Origin: Pediococcus ethanolidurans
GTDB taxonomy: Bacteria > Bacillota > Bacilli > Lactobacillales > Lactobacillaceae
Assembly (NCBI RefSeq): GCF_001437405.1
Contig: NZ_JQBY01000013.1
Location: forward strand, 1-64,000
Length of the DNA stretch: 64,000 nt
Direction of reading: 5' to 3'
The translations under genes and the position numbers were made by a program. The notes below the pieces were generated by a model. That model made no database searches, was not told the DNA's origin, and saw only the letters and a program-made list of their open reading frames with translations. Shown here piece by piece: positions 13,806 through 47,784 of the stretch; position 1 is the first letter of the stretch; each line of letters starts with the position of its first letter.

Positions 13806-13934
13806 GTGAAACTACTATAAATAAATTTTTGCCAACTTAAACAGCGCTTTGTTTAAATATTGTTTCAGAAAGAAAACGTTAAATTCAATTTTTGGATGTT
13901 TGCCGTGAGAATGCTGTTTTTCTAATTTTCAAAA

Positions 13935-13988
13935 AACAAAAAAGCCGCTATCCCTGTTTTTACGCTGGATAACAACTTTACTTTATTG
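13935..13988 (-). repeat. Repeat copy A: duplicated tRNA-Asn terminator
   Basis: This sequence is nearly identical to 14819-14873, the terminator of the tRNA-Asn gene, with one base indel in the A-run and one substitution. It has the same GTTATCC/GGATAGC stem and T-run. Next to it, GGCTCTGGTTG resembles the tRNA acceptor/T-arm end TGCTCCGGCTGG, suggesting a lost or partial tRNA 3' end. Confidence 0.75.
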
Positions 13989-14459: not shown

Positions 14460-14818
14460 ACATTTACCTATTCTTTCAAGTACGTTGCATTGGTTAAAGC
14501 ATGATTTCCAAATCTTCCATTTGAAGTCATTATAACATGACATTTATATTTAATTAAGAAAATAGTAATGTGAAATCGCAAAAACGTATTTATAAACATT
14601 TGCCCGCGAATAGAAAAATATTTTTATATATCAGGCAAACATCATTGCAAAATCTTTGTGTTAAACCAGTACTAATATTTAGTAATTACTATCCTTTGTG
14701 CTTTAAATCAAAGTTTTGACTTTTAGCGTATCAAATTTGGTTAAATGTTTTTACCAGTTTGAATAAAAGTTACAGGATCAAGTTGCGAACTTGAAAAAAC
14801 TCTTTCCTTAACTTTCAG
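14460..14818. other. Intergenic AT-rich region
   Basis: No gene is seen. A putative -10 (TATAAT, 14534-14529) serves the small membrane-protein gene. A short palindrome CAAGTT-GCG-AACTTG lies at 14780-14794. The rest is unstructured AT-rich DNA, consistent with decayed sequence between the two repeat copies. Confidence 0.5.
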
Positions 14819-14873
14819 AACAAAAAAAGCCGCTATCCCTGTTTTTACGCTGGATAACAACTTTACTCTATTG
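14819..14873 (-). terminator. Terminator of tRNA-Asn (repeat copy B)
   Basis: Immediately after the tRNA 3' end, leftward: GTTATCC pairs with GGATAGC around AGCGTAAAAACA, then GGC and seven T. Copy A of the same sequence lies 884 bp further left. Confidence 0.8.
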
Positions 14874-17092: not shown

Positions 17093-17284
17093 ACTGCTTC
17101 CCCCGTATCTTAGTCATCTTACGTATAAGTATATAACTTAATTTTTTAAAATTTAATGGCTTTAATTGTTTTGAAATATTCACGAATTATGTTTATCCAG
17201 TGAATCGCTTCAAATCAAGCTTTTTCAACCTTCTTCAAATGATTGTAACTAAAACTTAATAATTAAAAATTCTGTTTTTATACA

Positions 17285-17312
17285 AAAAGAGTGTGGAATA
17301 ACCACACTCTTA
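17285..17312 (-). terminator. Terminator of glmS
   Basis: AGAGTGTGG pairs with CCACACTCT around a 5-base loop. On the minus strand it ends in TTTTT. Confidence 0.85.
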
Positions 17313-17390
17313 GACTAGTTTAGTTTTTTTCTGATTTTTTTAAATGAGATAATTGTTTGAGAAATTCAAGTTAAATTTATTAAACGAAAC

Positions 17391-17497
17391 GTGCTAAAAG
17401 CAATTTTTTCAGCTTAATTCAACTTGTCCAACGATTTAAATAGTGAGTCATTGAATAAGTCGTGTTAATGCTCAAAAATCATTCGTCTTTTTAGCAC
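17391..17497. repeat. Long imperfect palindrome abutting the glmS 3' end
   Basis: GTGCTAAAAG (17391-17400) pairs with CTTTTTAGCAC (17487-17497). Inside are AACGATT and GTCATT and the string TAATGCTCAAAA. The opening GAAACGTG, the inner TAATGCTCAAAA and the closing ACTCT recur in the element beside murB (23589-23699), so both belong to one repeat family. Confidence 0.7.
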
Positions 17498-17502
17498 TCT
17501 TT

Positions 17503-19323
17503 TTATTCCACCGTTACACTCTTTGCTAAGTTTCTTGGCTGATCCACATCATAACCTCGTTCCAAACTTGCATAGTAAGCCAACAATTGTGCCGGCACCA
17601 CACTCATCAATGGCATCAACAACTCTGAAATTGTCGGAATCACAATGCGATCCTCTTTCTTTGCCAACGCTTCCGACACAATCGTCAAAACCTGGGCACC
17701 ACGTGACTTTACTTCTTGAATATTGCTTCGTGTATGTCCTGCCGTCTTAGCCTGCGTTATCAGCGCAATAACTGGCGTATGATCTTCAATCAACGCAATC
17801 GTTCCATGTTTTAACTCACCCGAAGCAAAGCCTTCCGCCTGGATATATGAAATCTCCTTAAGCTTCAGTGCCGCCTCTAATGCCACAAAATAATCGACGC
17901 CACGGCCAATATAAAAAGCATTGCGTGTTTTAGCCAAATCCTGATGGGCAATTTTTTTAAGTTTATCTTTTTCATCAACAATGGATTGAATTCCATTTGC
18001 TGCCAAACTCAATTCTCTGCGTACATCGAACTTTTGAGCAAATTCAATTTCTTTGACTTCACCCAACGCCTTAGCCACAACTGCTTCCACCGCAATCTGT
18101 GCTGTATAAGCTTTAGTTGAAGCCACCGCAATTTCTGGACCCGCATTCAATAACAATTGATAAGTTGCCTCACGATACAAAGTTGAATTTTCAACATTCG
18201 TAATCGTTAAACTTGGTGCATGCCATTCGTTATTCACACGTACCAAAACTTGACGACTATCTGCCGTCTCGCCACTTTGAGTCAAGAAAATAAAAAATGG
18301 ACGTTGTGATAACATTGGATCCGCATACGCAAATTCAGATGCAACAACCACTTCTGTAGGTATTTGAGTTAATTTTTCAAATAATTGTTTACCAACTAAT
18401 CCCGCATGATAACTTGTTCCTGCACCAACGATATACAAACGATCTGCGTGCTTCATCGCTGTCAATAATTCTGTAGAAATAGCCGGTTTATCTGTATTTT
18501 CCAGATAGGCTTTTTGAATGCGATGCAAAACAGCCGGTTGTTCATCAATTTCTTTTAACATGTAATACGGGTAAGCTCCCCGGTCTGTCTCCTTAGGATC
18601 AAGATCCACATGAAATGCTTCTCGTTGAACCTTTTTTCCTGCCTGATCGGTAATTTCAACTGTTTGTGGTGTTACCACAACCATTTCACCATCATGTAAT
18701 TCCAGAAAGTTCTTAGTCACATGTAGCATCGCCAGTGCATCACTACATACCACGTTAAAGTTTTTGCCTAGCCCAATCAATAATGGACTTTTGTTTTTAG
18801 CCACATATAACGTATCAGGTTGATCGCGATCCATTAATAAAAAGGCATAAGACGATCCTTTTAATAAGCTTAAAGTTTTTTTGAAGGCTTGCTTGGTATT
18901 CATATTTTCATGAACAACAAAATAATCGACCAATTGAACCACTACTTCAGTATCTGTTTGACTTACGAATTTAACATTATTTAAATACTGTGCTTTTAAT
19001 TCTTCATAATTTTCAATGACACCATTGTGAACTAAATAAAAACGATTATCTGTAGAAAATTGTGGATGGGCATTTTCAACGCTTGGTACACCATTCGTCG
19101 CCCACCTAGTATGTCCTATTCCAGTGGTTCCCTTAATTTGGGAAGTTATTTTACGTTTTAAATCTGCAATTTTTCCTCTAGTTTTAACCAAATGATCTTG
19201 TTTTTCACTATTATTTACATAAATTCCAGCTGAATCATAGCCACGATACTCTAATTTTTCTAATCCTGAAACTAAAATTTCAACTGTATCTGTTCTTCCT
19301 GTTACACCGACAATTCCACACAT
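17503..19323 (-). CDS. glmS: Glutamine--fructose-6-phosphate aminotransferase
   Basis: A 606-residue cytosolic enzyme making glucosamine-6-phosphate for peptidoglycan. The start MCGIVGV puts the glutaminase nucleophile Cys at position 2; the frame is open three codons further, but that Met-Cys is obligatory. EYRGYDSAGI and TRWATNG mark the glutaminase domain. Two SIS domains (GTSYHAG near 300, SQSGETADS near 350) bind the sugar, and the C-terminal DQPRNLAKSVTVE is conserved. It follows glmM behind a terminator, so it has its own promoter. No glmS ribozyme is visible upstream. Repeated TTGGTA motifs there may be regulator half-sites. Confidence 0.97.
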   Translation of the reverse strand: MCGIVGVTGRTDTVEILVSGLEKLEYRGYDSAGIYVNNSEKQDHLVKTRGKIADLKRKITSQIKGTTGIGHTRWATNGVPSVENAHPQFSTDNRFYLVHNGVIENYEELKAQYLNNVKFVSQTDTEVVVQLVDYFVVHENMNTKQAFKKTLSLLKGSSYAFLLMDRDQPDTLYVAKNKSPLLIGLGKNFNVVCSDALAMLHVTKNFLELHDGEMVVVTPQTVEITDQAGKKVQREAFHVDLDPKETDRGAYPYYMLKEIDEQPAVLHRIQKAYLENTDKPAISTELLTAMKHADRLYIVGAGTSYHAGLVGKQLFEKLTQIPTEVVVASEFAYADPMLSQRPFFIFLTQSGETADSRQVLVRVNNEWHAPSLTITNVENSTLYREATYQLLLNAGPEIAVASTKAYTAQIAVEAVVAKALGEVKEIEFAQKFDVRRELSLAANGIQSIVDEKDKLKKIAHQDLAKTRNAFYIGRGVDYFVALEAALKLKEISYIQAEGFASGELKHGTIALIEDHTPVIALITQAKTAGHTRSNIQEVKSRGAQVLTIVSEALAKKEDRIVIPTISELLMPLMSVVPAQLLAYYASLERGYDVDQPRNLAKSVTVE

Positions 19324-19350
19324 AGCTAACATCCTTTACAAATAAGTTAT

Positions 19351-19471
19351 AATTGGTATATATAGATATCAAAAATTGGTACGTTTGAAACATCTACTAA
19401 TTTATCCCTATTTATAAGGAATGTCAACATATTTTCTTATTTTGGTACTGTTTATTTAAATAATTGGTATA
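19351..19471. promoter_or_regulatory. glmS upstream region with four TTGGTA motifs
   Basis: (A/T)TTGGTA occurs with TTGG at 19353, 19376, 19442 and 19464. The motifs form two pairs spaced 23 and 22 bp, about two helical turns. On the glmS strand they read TACCAA(T/A). They recall half-sites of NagR-type GntR regulators, but no full palindrome is present. Confidence 0.4.
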
Positions 19472-19491
19472 ACTAAATAAAACGATAAATA

Positions 19492-19537
19492 AAATAACCG
19501 TTGTGATCAACATTCATTCTGATCGCAACGGTTATTT
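19492..19537 (-). terminator. Terminator of the cdaA-cdaR-glmM operon
   Basis: AAATAACCGTTG-GATCA pairs with TGATC-CAACGGTTATTT, 10 bases after the glmM stop on the minus strand. It is a strong stem of about 17 pairs. Confidence 0.85.
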
Positions 19538-19546
19538 AAACGGCTC

Positions 19547-20905
19547 TTAAATACCAACTTCTGTTTTTACAACTTCAACAATTCGATCAACATAAGCGGA
19601 AACTTCTTCCTTAGTTGCAGCTTCAGCCATTACCCGTAATAAATCTTCTGTTCCACTAGGACGAACAAGTACGCGTCCCTCACCATTCATTTCAGTTTCA
19701 ACAGTTTTAATAATTGCTTTAACTTTTTCATTATTTAAAGCTGCTTTTTTGTCTTGTACTTTTACGTTAACTAACTTTTGTGGATAAGTCTTCACTTCTG
19801 AAGCTAATTCGGATAATTTCTTACCTGTCTGTTTAACAATGTGCATTAATTGTAAAGCCGTTAACATTCCGTCACCTGTGGTATTAAAATCAAGAAAGAC
19901 CACATGGCCAGATTGTTCGCCACCCACGTTATACCCATTCTTTAACATTTCTTCAACAACGTAGCGGTCACCAACTTGAGTTTGTACAGAATGCAGATCA
20001 TTTGCTTCCAATGCTTTATACAAACCAAGATTACTCATAACAGTTGTAACGACCGTATCTTTCTTTAAGCGACCACGTTTGCTAAGATATTTACCACAAA
20101 TATACATAATTTTGTCGCCATCAACGATGTTGCCCTTTTCGTCAACTGCGATACAACGATCGCCATCCCCGTCAAAGGCCACACCAAGATCAGCACCTTC
20201 TTCCACAACAAACTTTTGTAATTGTTCTGGGTGTGTTGAGCCTACATTGGCATTAATATTTAAACCATTTGGCGATGTTGCCATCGTATCAAAATCAGTT
20301 TTTAAGTCAGCAAAAATTTGGGACACAAAACCACTAGTTGCGCCATTAGCAGAATCAACACAGATGTGTAGTCCTTCCAAATCATCTGGAATAGTTTGTT
20401 CCAAGAATTGAGTATATTTTAATGCTCCTTCTGGATAATCGTTTTCAGTTCCCAAACCTTCTGCAGATGGTCGTGGTAATTCATCTGTTTCTTTATCCAA
20501 AAGAACTTCAATTTCACCTTCAAGTTCATCCGAAAGTTTGTAACCATCTGAACCAAAGAATTTAATTCCATTATCCTGAACGGGATTATGTGAAGCCGTG
20601 ATCATTACACCAGCATCAGCTTCTTGTTTACGAACCAAATAGGCAACTCCGGGAGTTGTGACCACACCCATATTCAAAACTTCAATCCCCACAGACAAAA
20701 GTCCAGAGATTAATGCAGATTCTAGTAATTGTCCTGAAATACGAGTATCGCGAGAAACCAGTACCCGTGGTTGTTCATTTTTATTTTCAGCATGTTGTGT
20801 TAAAACATAACCACCAGTTCTTCCGAGTTGAAAAGCCATCTCAGGAGTTAAACTTTCGTTTGCGATTCCTCGTACACCATCTGTTCCAAAATATTTTAAT
20901 GCCAT
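19547..20905 (-). CDS. glmM: Phosphoglucosamine mutase
   Basis: A 452-residue enzyme converting glucosamine-6-P to glucosamine-1-P. It has the active-site serine in [12 protein letters not shown] (Ser105), the magnesium site DGDGDR, the sugar-binding GEQSGH and the phosphate-binding [12 protein letters not shown]. The frame is open four codons earlier, but GAGGAAAATC places the start at ATG 20905 ([10 protein letters not shown]). It is the third gene of the conserved cdaA-cdaR-glmM operon, in which CdaA activity is known to be modulated by GlmM and CdaR. Confidence 0.97.
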
Positions 20906-20939
20906 GATTTTCCTCATTCCTATTTTTTAAAAATTTTAA

Positions 20940-21815
20940 TTAACTATTTTTAGAGCTTGAACTACTTGATGAGCTCGAAGATTTTGAACTAGACGAACTT
21001 GATGATTTCGTCGAGCTTGATGAACTTGAACTCGTTGTCTTTTGATTATCAGTCTGTGCACTTGTTGATTCATTGCTACTTGAACTACTACTTGACGAAG
21101 AAGAACTCGTTGATTTTTGAACCGGAACGGTTACACTAACCGTTTGAGGACTCAAAATAACGTTAACCGTATCGCCCTGATTATCCAGTGCTTGTAATAA
21201 GACTTGACTTGTAACATCTTGTTTTGTGTTATTTGGTAAATTAACCTTTGCAACCACTTGTGTAATACGATTAATTTCGGTCACAGAACCTGTTGCCGAA
21301 ACTGTTTGAGAACGCAAAATGGCTGCTTTGCTTTCATACCCCTTAGCAATTGCATCTTGATTAACTTCCGGTTGAATGGCAAACGTCTTTGTTCGCCGAT
21401 TAGCAATCGTAACATTGATGCTTTCAGGCTCAAAGCTGTACGAAAGTTCTTTGTTAAGGCCCTCTTCTTTAATACGGACCTTATGTTTACCAAGACCTAA
21501 TTTACGCAATGAAACATATGCTTTAAAGTTTTGCGTATTGGTAGTTGTCGTCACCAGTGCACTAGGCCCGGTAATTTTAATTTTGACTTTTGACGGGTAG
21601 CCACTTACTAAATACTTACTACTGTTTACATCCAATTCAAGTGGTACAGTAAGTGTTTTTGATTTGTTGGCCATTAATGCAGTGTCACTAGAGTTTCCGC
21701 CAGTAGACACATTGCCAGAATTCATACGATCTGATTTAACATACGTAAACAGCAGAATAGCTAAAACCAAAGCTAAAATTCGGTAAACCCAACGTTCTTT
21801 CCAAAAGCTTTTCAT
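20940..21815 (-). CDS. cdaR: CdaA regulatory protein CdaR (YbbR domains) with serine-rich tail
   Basis: A 291-residue protein with one N-terminal membrane anchor (VYRILALVLAILLFTYV, residues 10-26) and extracytoplasmic YbbR domains over about 40-235. The last 55 residues are almost pure serine with scattered Lys and Thr. CdaR binds CdaA and tunes c-di-AMP synthesis. The Ser tail uses mixed codons (AGT, AGC, TCA, TCG, TCT), so it is maintained as protein rather than as a DNA slippage tract. It may span or bind the wall (inference). The start overlaps the cdaA stop by four bases. Confidence 0.92.
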   Translation of the reverse strand: MKSFWKERWVYRILALVLAILLFTYVKSDRMNSGNVSTGGNSSDTALMANKSKTLTVPLELDVNSSKYLVSGYPSKVKIKITGPSALVTTTTNTQNFKAYVSLRKLGLGKHKVRIKEEGLNKELSYSFEPESINVTIANRRTKTFAIQPEVNQDAIAKGYESKAAILRSQTVSATGSVTEINRITQVVAKVNLPNNTKQDVTSQVLLQALDNQGDTVNVILSPQTVSVTVPVQKSTSSSSSSSSSSSNESTSAQTDNQKTTSSSSSSSTKSSSSSSSKSSSSSSSSSSKNS

Positions 21816-22663
21816 TTCTTTGGACCTCCTTTAAAGAAGGAAGTAACACCCTCCAAGAAGTCTTGAATAATATTATGATTTTCTGGTACTTCATCACTAA
21901 GGAATTGATCGCGGAAATAACGTAAGTAATCTTCTTGCGTCATATTACGCAACAATTCATTATCTTTAGTGATGGACACTTCACCAGTTTCTTCAGAAAC
22001 CACAACCGTGACGGCATCAGTTACCTCACTGATTCCAACCGCTGCACGATGTCTTGTTCCTAGTTCTTTAGGAATCATGGTGCTTTGTGACAAAGGCAGG
22101 TAAGCCGCCGCGACGGCTATTTTATTATCTTTAATAATTACTGCCCCATCATGTAATGGTGTATTTGGAATGAAAATATTAATCAACAATTCACCGGTAA
22201 TATCTGCATCTAGTGCAATTCCAGTTTCAATATAATCTTCCAAACCAGTATCCATTTGAATAGTAATAAGTGCCCCAATTCGGCGTTTGGACATGTATTG
22301 AATTGCCTTATCCAAGCCCTCAATCATATGTGTCTCTGCTTCATTTTGTGTCTTGTTTTTGACAAACATTGAGCCACGACCCAAATGCTCCAAGCCACGA
22401 CGAATTTCGGGTTGAAAAATGACCACCATGGCAATAACGCCCCAGTTGATCACTTGATCCATAATCCACGAAACAGTACTTAACCCAAGCAGAACACTTA
22501 CCACTTTAATCAGAATAATTACAATTATTCCACGAAAAAGTTGAACGGCTTTTGTCCCCCGCAACAACATGATCAATTCATAAATGACGAACCAAACCAC
22601 AAGGATGTCGATTAGGTTCATAAAATTATGTAAAGTAATCAGTCGATCCCAAGCAAAATTCAT
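21812..22663 (-). CDS. cdaA: Diadenylate cyclase CdaA
   Basis: A 283-residue enzyme making c-di-AMP from two ATP. Three N-terminal membrane helices (to about residue 80) are followed by a DAC domain with the catalytic DGAVIIKDN and the ATP-binding GTRHRAAVGISE. It heads the cdaA-cdaR-glmM operon and overlaps cdaR by ATGA. c-di-AMP controls potassium and osmolyte transport and wall homeostasis in Firmicutes. The start MNFAWDRL follows GGAGGAAAA. Confidence 0.96.
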   Translation of the reverse strand: MNFAWDRLITLHNFMNLIDILVVWFVIYELIMLLRGTKAVQLFRGIIVIILIKVVSVLLGLSTVSWIMDQVINWGVIAMVVIFQPEIRRGLEHLGRGSMFVKNKTQNEAETHMIEGLDKAIQYMSKRRIGALITIQMDTGLEDYIETGIALDADITGELLINIFIPNTPLHDGAVIIKDNKIAVAAAYLPLSQSTMIPKELGTRHRAAVGISEVTDAVTVVVSEETGEVSITKDNELLRNMTQEDYLRYFRDQFLSDEVPENHNIIQDFLEGVTSFFKGGPKK

Positions 22664-22793
22664 TTATTTTTCCTCCAAACCAATACAAAAATAATTATAG
22701 CACAGAGCACCTTAATAAAAACTTCGTAATCCAGTCATTTTATAGCAAAATATTCGTTTGATCTGCTACAATTAAATTAGCGAGGAAAACACT

Positions 22794-23438
22794 ATGACAA
22801 CAAAGACAAAATGGATCATTCGACTTTGCTATGGCCTGGGATTACTTTACATTGCACTATTTGTGCACCCACCATATCATTTTTTACTTCTTAATACATT
22901 TTTAGCCTATATACCAATTGAAATTGCTTTTCATGTTGGTGAAAAACGGCCAAAAAATTCACTAGTTTTTTGGTTGACCATTTTAGTTTGGCTGCTTTTT
23001 TATCCAAACGCACCATACTTACTTACAGATCTTTTTCACCTTAGTCTTTTGCATCCCTATGGCAACACTGGATTGATCAGATTGTCCATCTCAATGTGGA
23101 TTTATTATATCTATATGTTACTGGCAGTTATTCCCAGTGTTATGCTTGGTATGTGGAGTATGACTCAAGTCACGCGATCAATTGTGAAAAGATATCATAT
23201 CCACCATAAAATTGTCGAAATGGGAATTGTTGGCATCTTCACTACCTTATCCTCAATCGGGATTTTCATTGGCAGATTTTTACGGTTGCACACCATTTAC
23301 CTGTTAATTAGCCCCGAATGGGTTTTAAAACCCATTTTTAACATGTGGTCGTTACAAATGTTGGCATTCGTTATTTTAATGACGCTCCTTCAAAGTACAA
23401 TCTATGTTGTCTTACGGGTCATTCGAAATACTAATTAA
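22794..23438 (+). CDS. DUF1361 family membrane protein
   Basis: A 214-residue integral membrane protein with six or seven helices. It has the DUF1361 hallmarks: WLLFYPNAPYLLTDLFHL in the third helix region, then WIYYIYML and GIFIGRFLRLH. Its function is unknown. It is divergent from cdaA and is followed by a terminator, so it is expressed alone. Confidence 0.88.
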   Translation: MTTKTKWIIRLCYGLGLLYIALFVHPPYHFLLLNTFLAYIPIEIAFHVGEKRPKNSLVFWLTILVWLLFYPNAPYLLTDLFHLSLLHPYGNTGLIRLSISMWIYYIYMLLAVIPSVMLGMWSMTQVTRSIVKRYHIHHKIVEMGIVGIFTTLSSIGIFIGRFLRLHTIYLLISPEWVLKPIFNMWSLQMLAFVILMTLLQSTIYVVLRVIRNTN

Positions 23439-23449
23439 AAAATATAAAT

Positions 23450-23487
23450 AAAGAGGTCGGAAATTAATTTTTCCCGAGACCTCTTTT
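23450..23487 (+). terminator. Terminator of the DUF1361 gene
   Basis: AAAGAGGTC (23450-23458) pairs with GACCTCTTT (23478-23486), followed by T residues. Confidence 0.8.
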
Positions 23488-23513
23488 AATTTGCTTAAAT
23501 TTATGGATTAAAT

Positions 23514-23567
23514 GTGTTTAACTGGGAGCTTCCGGCAACGATTCCTAACCTGAATCATTCTTTGCCT
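23514..23567. repeat. Truncated copy of the murB-type palindromic repeat
   Basis: GTGTTTAA, GGGAGCTT and ACGATTCCTAACC, then GAATCATTC match the left half of the full element at 23589-23699 in the same order. It forms only a small hairpin, GGCAA...TTGCC. Confidence 0.6.
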
Positions 23568-23588
23568 TTTTACGTTTATAGCCGAAAC

Positions 23589-23699
23589 GTGTTTAAAAGG
23601 GCAGCTTTTTCCGCTTAGCTACGGTGATTAAACGATTCCTAACCCGAATCATTCAACCACCTAGGCTAATGCTCAAAAGCTAAACGCCCTTTTAAACAC
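23589..23699. repeat. Long palindromic repeat abutting the murB 3' end
   Basis: The outer arms GTGTTTAAAAGGGC (23589-23602) and GCCCTTTTAAACAC (23686-23699) are perfect. Inner pairs include AGCTTTT/AAAAGCT, GCTTAGC/GGCTAATGC (imperfect) and GGTGATT-AACGATTC against GAATCATT-AACCACC. The element ends one base before the murB stop codon, as the glmS element ends beside glmS. Confidence 0.8.
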
Positions 23700-23700
23700 T

Positions 23701-24600
23701 CTACTTTTCTCCAATTATCCTAACCTCAGTCTGCAAATGCACACCGAACTTTTCGAAAACCGTCTCCTGCACATGATGGATCACATTCAAATAATCCGTT
23801 GCCGTCGCACCACCCACGTTAATAATGAAACCCGCATGTTTTCTTGAAACCTGTGCACCACCAATCTGAAATCCCTGAAGCCCCGACTCGTGAATCAACT
23901 TACCCGTAAAATAACCCGTCGGTCGCTTAAACACACTCCCACACGACGGATACTCCAACGGTTGCTTTGAAGCCCTCAATCGATTTAACTCGTCCATCCG
24001 AGCCCGAATCTTACCCGCATTTCCGGGTTGCAAATTGAATGTTGCTGACAACACGATATCATCATAATCCTGAATGCTACTGTGACGATAGCCGAAATCT
24101 AGCTCGTGGTTTGTCAACGTTCGAATTTCTCCCTGTCGCGTTAAAATCTGTACCTTACTAACCACTTCACTAATTTCGCCACCATATGCACCCGCGTTCA
24201 TGAAAACAGCACCACCAACACTACCTGGGATTCCGGCCGCAAATTCAACTCCCGTCAAACTAGCTTGATAAGCCACTTCAGTTGTTTCAATCAGCGCTGC
24301 ACCAGCTTCTGCAGTAACTTGATTTCCAGAAACCTGAATTTCTTTCATTTTAGTCAAAATGACTGTTAAACCACGAATACCGCCATCGCGGACAATCAAA
24401 TTGCTAGCATTGCCCACCACCGTTAAGGCCATGTCCTGTTGATCAGCCCAGCTTAATAACTGACTAACCTGATCAACAGTTTTAGGAAACGCTAAATAAT
24501 CAGCAGGTCCGCCAGTTTTGGTATTTGTATATTTCGACAGTGGCTCGTGTTCTAATATTTGAATGTCTGGAAATGTTTCGGTTATCGTTTGCAAAATCAT
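23701..24600 (-). CDS. murB: UDP-N-acetylenolpyruvoylglucosamine reductase
   Basis: A 299-residue FAD enzyme reducing UDP-GlcNAc-enolpyruvate to UDP-MurNAc. The FAD domain has [10 protein letters not shown] (about 26-35) and [33 protein letters not shown] binds FAD (quoted as GIPGSVGG and NAGAYGGE), [10 protein letters not shown] contains the catalytic serine region and [12 protein letters not shown] the C-terminal motif. It is the short type (type IIa length). It lies downstream of an oxidoreductase gene on the same strand, with a 27-base gap. Confidence 0.97.
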
Positions 24601-47570: not shown

Positions 47571-47589
47571 TTAACTTTTAAGCTGCTCG

Positions 47590-47690
47590 GAGTAACAAGC
47601 ATCCAAAAATAAGCACATTCCTACTGCGGGATTTCTTCCGCCTACGGAACGTGCCTTTTCTATTCTTTACTTGTTAAACTTCAGGACGGC
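47590..47690. repeat. Degenerate copy of the whiA-side palindrome
   Basis: GAGTAACAAG-ATCCAAAAATAAGCAC (broken here for length), ATTCCTACTGCGGGA and CCGCCTACGGAACGTGC match the perfect element starting at 47694, in tandem, 104 bp apart. The right arm has decayed (CCTTTTCTATTC instead of TTATTTTTGGAT). Confidence 0.75.
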
Positions 47691-47693
47691 TCA

Positions 47694-47784
47694 GAGTAAC
47701 AAGTATCCAAAAATAAGCACATTCCTACTGCGGGAATTCTCCCGCCTACGGAACGTGCTTATTTTTGGATACTTATCGTTACTC
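47694..47784. repeat. Long near-perfect palindrome between clpP and whiA
   Basis: Outer arms are GAGTAAC (47694-47700) and GTTACTC (47778-47784). The main arms are perfect 20-mers, AAGTATCCAAAAATAAGCAC (47701-47720) and GTGCTTATTTTTGGATACTT (47755-47774). The core is ATTCC...GGAA and GCGGGA-ATTC-TCCCGC. It ends 13 bases from the whiA stop. Confidence 0.85.

Follow-up and report, generated by a model that had tools for sequence, protein, structure and literature searches.

The window examined here is a 64,000-nucleotide stretch of Pediococcus ethanolidurans (RefSeq assembly GCF_001437405.1, contig NZ_JQBY01000013.1, positions 1 to 64,000), in which the minus-strand genes glmS and murB are each followed by a long palindromic element at the stop codon. 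Both elements belong to one repeat family of the Lactobacillaceae, which probably consists of small, modular, BOX-like, non-autonomous mobile elements that are kept as folded RNA in 3' untranslated regions (3' UTRs). We describe the locus in the sense of glmS and murB, i.e., on the minus strand; its features are the following.

23701-24600, minus strand: murB, the gene upstream of the first element (NCBIfam TIGR00179, 258 bits).
23702-23575, minus strand: murB element, a full unit (cmsearch, 144.4 bits; fold z = -9.15).
23514-23567, minus strand: truncated second unit in the murB array, with the apical hairpin and part of the 3' arm (BLAST, 96% over the 24 bases 23537-23560; array layout of other copies).
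23477-23457, minus strand: separate intrinsic-terminator-like hairpin 3' of the murB element (scan, 1 found versus 0.2 expected).
17503-19332, minus strand: glmS, the gene upstream of the second element (NCBIfam TIGR01135, 688.9 bits).
17500-17377, minus strand: glmS element, a full but more divergent unit (cmsearch, 83.6 bits; fold z = -4.46).
17311-17287, minus strand: separate intrinsic-terminator-like hairpin 3' of the glmS element (scan, 1 found versus 0.0 expected).

An earlier note on this DNA had described two full palindromes and a truncated third copy. All three lie where it placed them, but the full units are slightly longer than it had them (23702-23575 and 17500-17377), and their sense is that of the minus strand. 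What it took for a truncated copy looks like the second, decayed unit of the array behind murB; folded alone, this remnant is not significant against shuffles (z = -0.69). The z scores listed above are for minus-strand folds compared with dinucleotide shuffles. In the window copies, the element runs on the minus strand from AGAGTG to about TATAAA, and the shared blocks of the earlier note, GAAACGTG, AACGATT, TAATGCTCAAAA, and ACTCT, are found in both copies on the plus strand. At glmS, AGAGTG begins 2 bases past the TAA stop; at murB, the TAG stop is completed by the element's own first two bases, AG.

Each unit of about 128 bases forms one long hairpin in which the internal loops are fixed and the stems vary freely yet pair. 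From its 5' end, the unit has AGAGTG followed by the outer stem and GCG; the 4-base bulge leads into the second stem, GAGCA into the third, and CCTAGG into the fourth, whose apex is AATGATTC-loop-GAATCGTT. The matching 3' arms come next, and the final letters are CACGTTTCGGCTATAAA. The murB unit follows this plan, with an outer stem GTG...CAC, the 4-base bulge, inner stems, the apical hairpin AATGATTC/GAATCGTT, and then GTTTCGGCTATAAA.

The stems covary. RNAalifold predicted 42 pairs from 19 copies of the P. ethanolidurans genome, 26 of them with compensatory changes, which is the check that the earlier note had proposed; 96.4% of cells are paired, and the covariation is 0.513, whereas shuffles give 0.200 and slid controls no more than 0.144. 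A second set, 23 copies from six other genera that were aligned and folded separately, gave 43 pairs (34 compensatory), with 97.2% of cells paired and a covariation of 0.685 versus 0.196 in shuffles. None of 500 shuffles reached the observed value on any of five measures in either alignment; these counts are not probabilities, because the copies are related. Counted on the strand of gene sense, G-U cells exceed A-C cells by 60:12 in the own-genome copies and by 62:3 in the six-genera set, which indicates that it is this strand that folds, either as RNA or as single-stranded DNA with the same sense. Neither consensus pairs the bases of the 4-base bulge or of the internal loops, and 16 of 18 own-genome copies and 14 of 23 copies from other genera retain one U-G wobble.

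The host assembly is a 66-contig draft of 2.26 Mb with 96.46% completeness. A BLAST search with the murB copy gave 34 matches in it, one of which is the copy's own antisense strand. A covariance model built from 19 own-genome copies gave 61 matches at E values up to 0.01, comprising 15 antisense shadows and 46 distinct sense-strand places; the latter figure is a hand count that includes partial and weak places, and neighbors within arrays overlap by a few bases. The inference that the palindromes form one family is thus borne out. The possibility that only the window copies exist and that their stems do not covary was also examined; there are dozens of copies, and the stems covary.

The family extends well beyond this species. 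All 12 genomes of the genus Pediococcus match the model, with 1 to 62 matches per genome, shadows included. Across a sample of the Lactobacillaceae, 118 of 251 genomes and 19 of 40 genera (own genus included) match at E values up to 1e-5; this survey scored up to 13 candidates per genome, so that its copy numbers are lower bounds. In a class-wide sample, the model has matches in 7 of 398 genomes, namely the own genome, one further genome of its order, and five from a single other genus. The class-level matches outside the family (L110-L116) have similar loops, such as GCG-TTTAG and GAGCA, and different stems; the stop-codon test described below is passed at 4 of 8 class-level places examined, and these distant matches may be true relatives. 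A strict core pattern, too stringent to reveal other genera, matched in Pediococcus damnosus, P. parvulus, and P. cellicola and had 0 matches among viral contigs. Three of the loci in these named species agree in element and flank with loci of the genus relatives G006, G008, and G004, which identifies the genus as Pediococcus. A single-copy query had no match among phages and one among plasmids, in a Latilactobacillus curvatus plasmid, where the copy lies about 9 bases 3' of a DUF2188 gene. With the flanks of this copy as a query, no empty site was seen in the best 40 of 759 records, and many of the top ones match through an ISL3 element.

Copies of the family lie predominantly at stop codons. 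We tested 137 distinct copies from the own genome, the genus, the family, and a few from beyond the family for a sense-strand open frame of at least 60 codons with the end of its stop codon within -12 to +2 of AGAGTG. The copies are mostly best-scoring matches and no random sample, and the covariance model contains no upstream sequence. A stop codon lies at this distance in 84 of the 137 copies, compared to 4 of 137 in the mirror image and 638 of 27,400 (2.3%) random positions in the same loci; the counts are 22 of 29 for the own genome and 17 of 23 for six other genera. The most common stop offset is +2, seen in 22 of 84 copies, in which the AG of the element completes a TAG, and the offsets fade out within 12 bases; the 84 stops comprise 51 TAA, 30 TAG, and 3 TGA codons. 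The link to gene 3' ends proposed in the earlier note is therefore strong, but "always" goes too far with 84 of 137 copies.

Three kinds of placement stand apart. At L146, L177, L164:2639, and L055, frames of several hundred codons enter the element by 14 to 23 bases and stop inside it, which suggests, from the reading frames, that the element supplies the C termini there. At L043, L060, and L073, the same place in three species, a copy lies upstream of and antisense to a gene read as guaA (name unconfirmed); this shared exception to the stop-codon rule is among the copies that fail the test. At L038:1298-1627 (G000 C8:45226-45555), facing elements sit at the own TAG stops of two convergent genes, with a terminator-like hairpin between them.

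Copies have been gained in individual lineages. For each of the 11 genus relatives, we identified where glmS and murB end. Behind glmS, the covariance model found no element in 10 relatives, and the G010 stretch ends 44 bases from glmS; behind murB, it found none in 10 of 11. The remaining relative, G003 (L134:5539-5664), has a different element 11 bases past the murB TAA, at another offset and 55% identical to the window copy; it is possibly a second gain or a remnant. Because the four nearest relatives by MurB identity (91 to 95%) all lack the element, the window murB copy is best read as a gain. The GlmS C terminus is SVTVE in all eight relatives whose ends were read, and the MurB C terminus is IIGEK in G006, G007, and G008 as in the window, with TAA there and TAG in the window.

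Evidence for recent gains comes from comparing G001 with its sister species, G002. G001 has a young subfamily (L140:2047-2176, L148:1276-1405, L149, L150, L154-L156, L158, and L159) of nine copies that are 82 to 95% identical, with a mean of 90% versus 71% among 11 other G001 copies. Six of the nine align to an element-free site in G002; L149 and L150 have no G002 counterpart in the stretches compared, and L159 is common to both species. A scan found a terminator-like hairpin at all six aligned G002 sites, at L184 and L194 only on the strand opposite to the element, so that these young copies are located where the sister species has such a hairpin. The L185 hairpin resembles the apical stem of the family, and this site may therefore not be a plain terminator. 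In comparison to the six empty sites, the hairpin is partly replaced in G001, and no target-site duplication is seen; by reading, A- and T-tracts persist on both sides of the G001 copy. In some young G001 copies, the 3' part is extended and resembles a terminator hairpin.

The elements also vary in their arrangement. By reading, they form arrays of 1 to 5 units, and the arrays of G001 and G002 differ in unit number and order. In the own genome, 7 of 23 sources with elements have arrays containing 1 to 6 copies of an inner module, 104 bases long and predicted to form two hairpins; where read, the module is situated inside a unit, and the window has none.

A rather unlikely, though serious, alternative is that the family is a domesticated, essentially immobile regulatory RNA of the 3' UTR, which is inherited with its genes and gained or lost only over long times. 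A number of observations speak in its favor or otherwise weigh against mobile elements placed at gene ends. At least 20 sites, paired by hand, carry the element in both G001 and G002, which argues that many copies are old and stable. The structure is strongly kept, and the placement is tight; the element behind murB in G003 could be an old site with losses elsewhere just as it could be a second gain. The stems at the shared sites have 0 to 9 broken pairs per site. Among the tested copies, 53 of 137 fail the stop-codon test, including most of the young G001 subfamily, copies with frames that run into the element, and downstream array units, which count as misses because they cannot touch a stop; when frames of at least 40 codons are allowed, the control rises to 10 of 137 for the mirror image, with 86 of 137 for the copies. 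No transposase, terminal rule, or target-site duplication is established for the family, and reverse transcriptase (PF00078) has 0 matches in the own genome and matches in 2 of 12 genus genomes. Evidence against inheritance with the genes comes from the glmS copy, missing in 10 judgeable relatives, from the murB copy, missing in 10 of 11, and from the nine closely similar G001 copies, six of which are missing at the aligned G002 site. Repetitive extragenic palindromes (REPs) and bacterial interspersed mosaic elements (BIMEs), like the attC sites of integrons, are palindromes behind stops with varying stems and fixed loops, and this likeness counts for the idea that the family is a REP/BIME moved by a RAYT (REP-associated tyrosine, Y1) transposase or an attC-like integron site. 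REPs are tied to Y1 transposases, whereas PF01797 has 0 matches in the own genome and matches in 1 of 12 genus genomes; the integron integrase TIGR02249 has eight weak matches in the own genome, none over the cutoff. As movers, the Y1 transposase, reverse transcriptase, and integron integrase are thus unsupported in the own genome, an absence that is not absolute in a draft of this completeness. The REP/RAYT or attC explanation, to which we give almost no credence, is largely refuted for the own genome, unless the enzyme is encoded in sequence missing from the assembly.

Two further explanations concern the origin of the stems and the function of the hairpin. The stems could be paired through mutational correction of quasi-palindromes by template switching, with no selection on the fold. 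The copies are paralogues, and at the shared sites of G001 and G002, the first units are 87 to 97% identical at 8 and 66 to 76% identical at 12, where up to 14 pairs have changed on both sides, as template switching would have it. Correction would, however, tend to erase the 4-base bulge and the internal loops, which stay unpaired in both alignments; the kept U-G wobble and the 62:3 strand asymmetry also speak against it, and we judge it improbable. Quite unlikely, in turn, is that the element is the transcription terminator of the upstream gene, as the earlier note had allowed. Elements do sit at 3' ends, young copies occupy places with a terminator-like hairpin in the sister species, and the antisense strand of some copies ends in CTCTTTTT. 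On the gene-sense strand, however, the outer stem of the consensus is followed by GTTTCGGCTATAAA, with no U-tract, and separate terminator-like hairpins lie 3' of both window copies; a crude scan found such a downstream hairpin in 12 of 25 own-genome cases and none in 13. For these reasons, the window elements are rejected as terminators and are taken to be hairpins between the stop codon and the terminator. The terminator stem behind glmS (17287-17311) starts with AAGAGTGTGG, ends with CCACACTCTT, and resembles the 5' end of the element, of which it could be a remnant. The idea that all placement results from insertion into terminators was dropped because of the convergent pair at L038, in which each gene has a copy at its own stop.

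We favor mobile elements that would spread into the 3' ends of genes and persist there as folded RNA in the 3' UTR, and the behavior of the family fits the small non-autonomous mobile repeat that the earlier note had suggested. An enzyme acting in trans would move the element and might prefer gene-end DNA or hairpins. Only as a tentative proposal, and a doubtful one, do we suggest that the insertion machinery seeks gene ends (the stop codon or terminator hairpin, in the sense orientation), that the element moves as an RNA or single-strand hairpin selected for its structure, and that the mover is neither a RAYT nor a reverse transcriptase nor an integron integrase. In the favored reading, the hairpin would be part of the upstream gene's transcript, before the terminator and at a point that the terminating ribosome can reach. 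By analogy with what is reported for REPs near stop codons in Escherichia coli, it may hinder degradation from the 3' end by exonucleases, slow termination or recycling, or do both; a role in mRNA 3'-end protection, also raised in the earlier note, is possible.

The closest known system in build is BOX of Streptococcus pneumoniae, small modular intergenic repeats in many copies with a predicted folded RNA (PMC3049150). In BOX, the two outer parts pair with each other and enclose inner modules whose number varies (PMC3049150), and the same arrangement is found in the Lactobacillaceae family; the comparison is one of build. The two differ in other respects. Of the 137 copies here, 84 lie directly at a stop codon in the gene sense, and the family spans the Lactobacillaceae. 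BOX elements are reported to be overrepresented between convergent genes (PMC3049150), whereas a convergent gene comes next in 13 of 25 own-genome cases of the present family; target-site duplications are reported for BOX (PMC3049150), whereas none is established here. REPs resemble the family as palindromes close behind stop codons: earlier work cited in PMC12306157 reported that E. coli REPs within 15 nt of the stop stall ribosomes and proposed that 260 of 496 act in translation, and the set of that paper itself has 446 of 4,072 within 15 nt of a stop. A REP, however, is 20 to 40 bp (PMC3733652), whereas a unit here measures about 128 nt and has internal loops that are fixed. Miniature inverted-repeat transposable elements (MITEs) are likewise short, palindromic, present in many copies, and without a transposase of their own seen (reviewed in PMC10969869), but no parent transposon or target-site duplication was found here, with the insertion sequence ends of the host left out of the comparison.

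The repeat appears to be undescribed. At gathering score, Rfam 15 reported only two tRNAs in the window and nothing at the elements, and a search of 17200-24000 at E values up to 5 gave one weak match, away from the elements. We found no description of the repeat in searches of open-licence papers, whose silence is no proof. In the text of the 2024 review of prokaryotic MITEs (PMC10969869), the terms Lactobacill-, Pediococcus, and stop codon do not occur. A repeat survey of 40 genomes (PMC2267715) names a family Lac-1, and Lactobacillus johnsonii is the only Lactobacillus noticed in its accessible text; a link between Lac-1 and the present family is conceivable. The window also contains two other repeat pairs: 75-base repeats at 47585-47763 (92% identical, starts 104 bases apart) and 71-base repeats at 13918-13988 and 14803-14873 (86% identical, starts 885 bases apart).

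Small structured interspersed repeats are a known kind of element; as far as we found, what is new is the anchoring at stop codons in combination with stems that covary strongly throughout a family. Present in 118 of 251 sampled species of an economically important family and anchored at stops in several genera, the repeat would be a large class of 3'-UTR RNA in food bacteria, one that is apparently uncatalogued. It opens the question of what effect a hairpin inside the footprint of the terminating ribosome has on expression and the question of how a mobile element finds the ends of genes.

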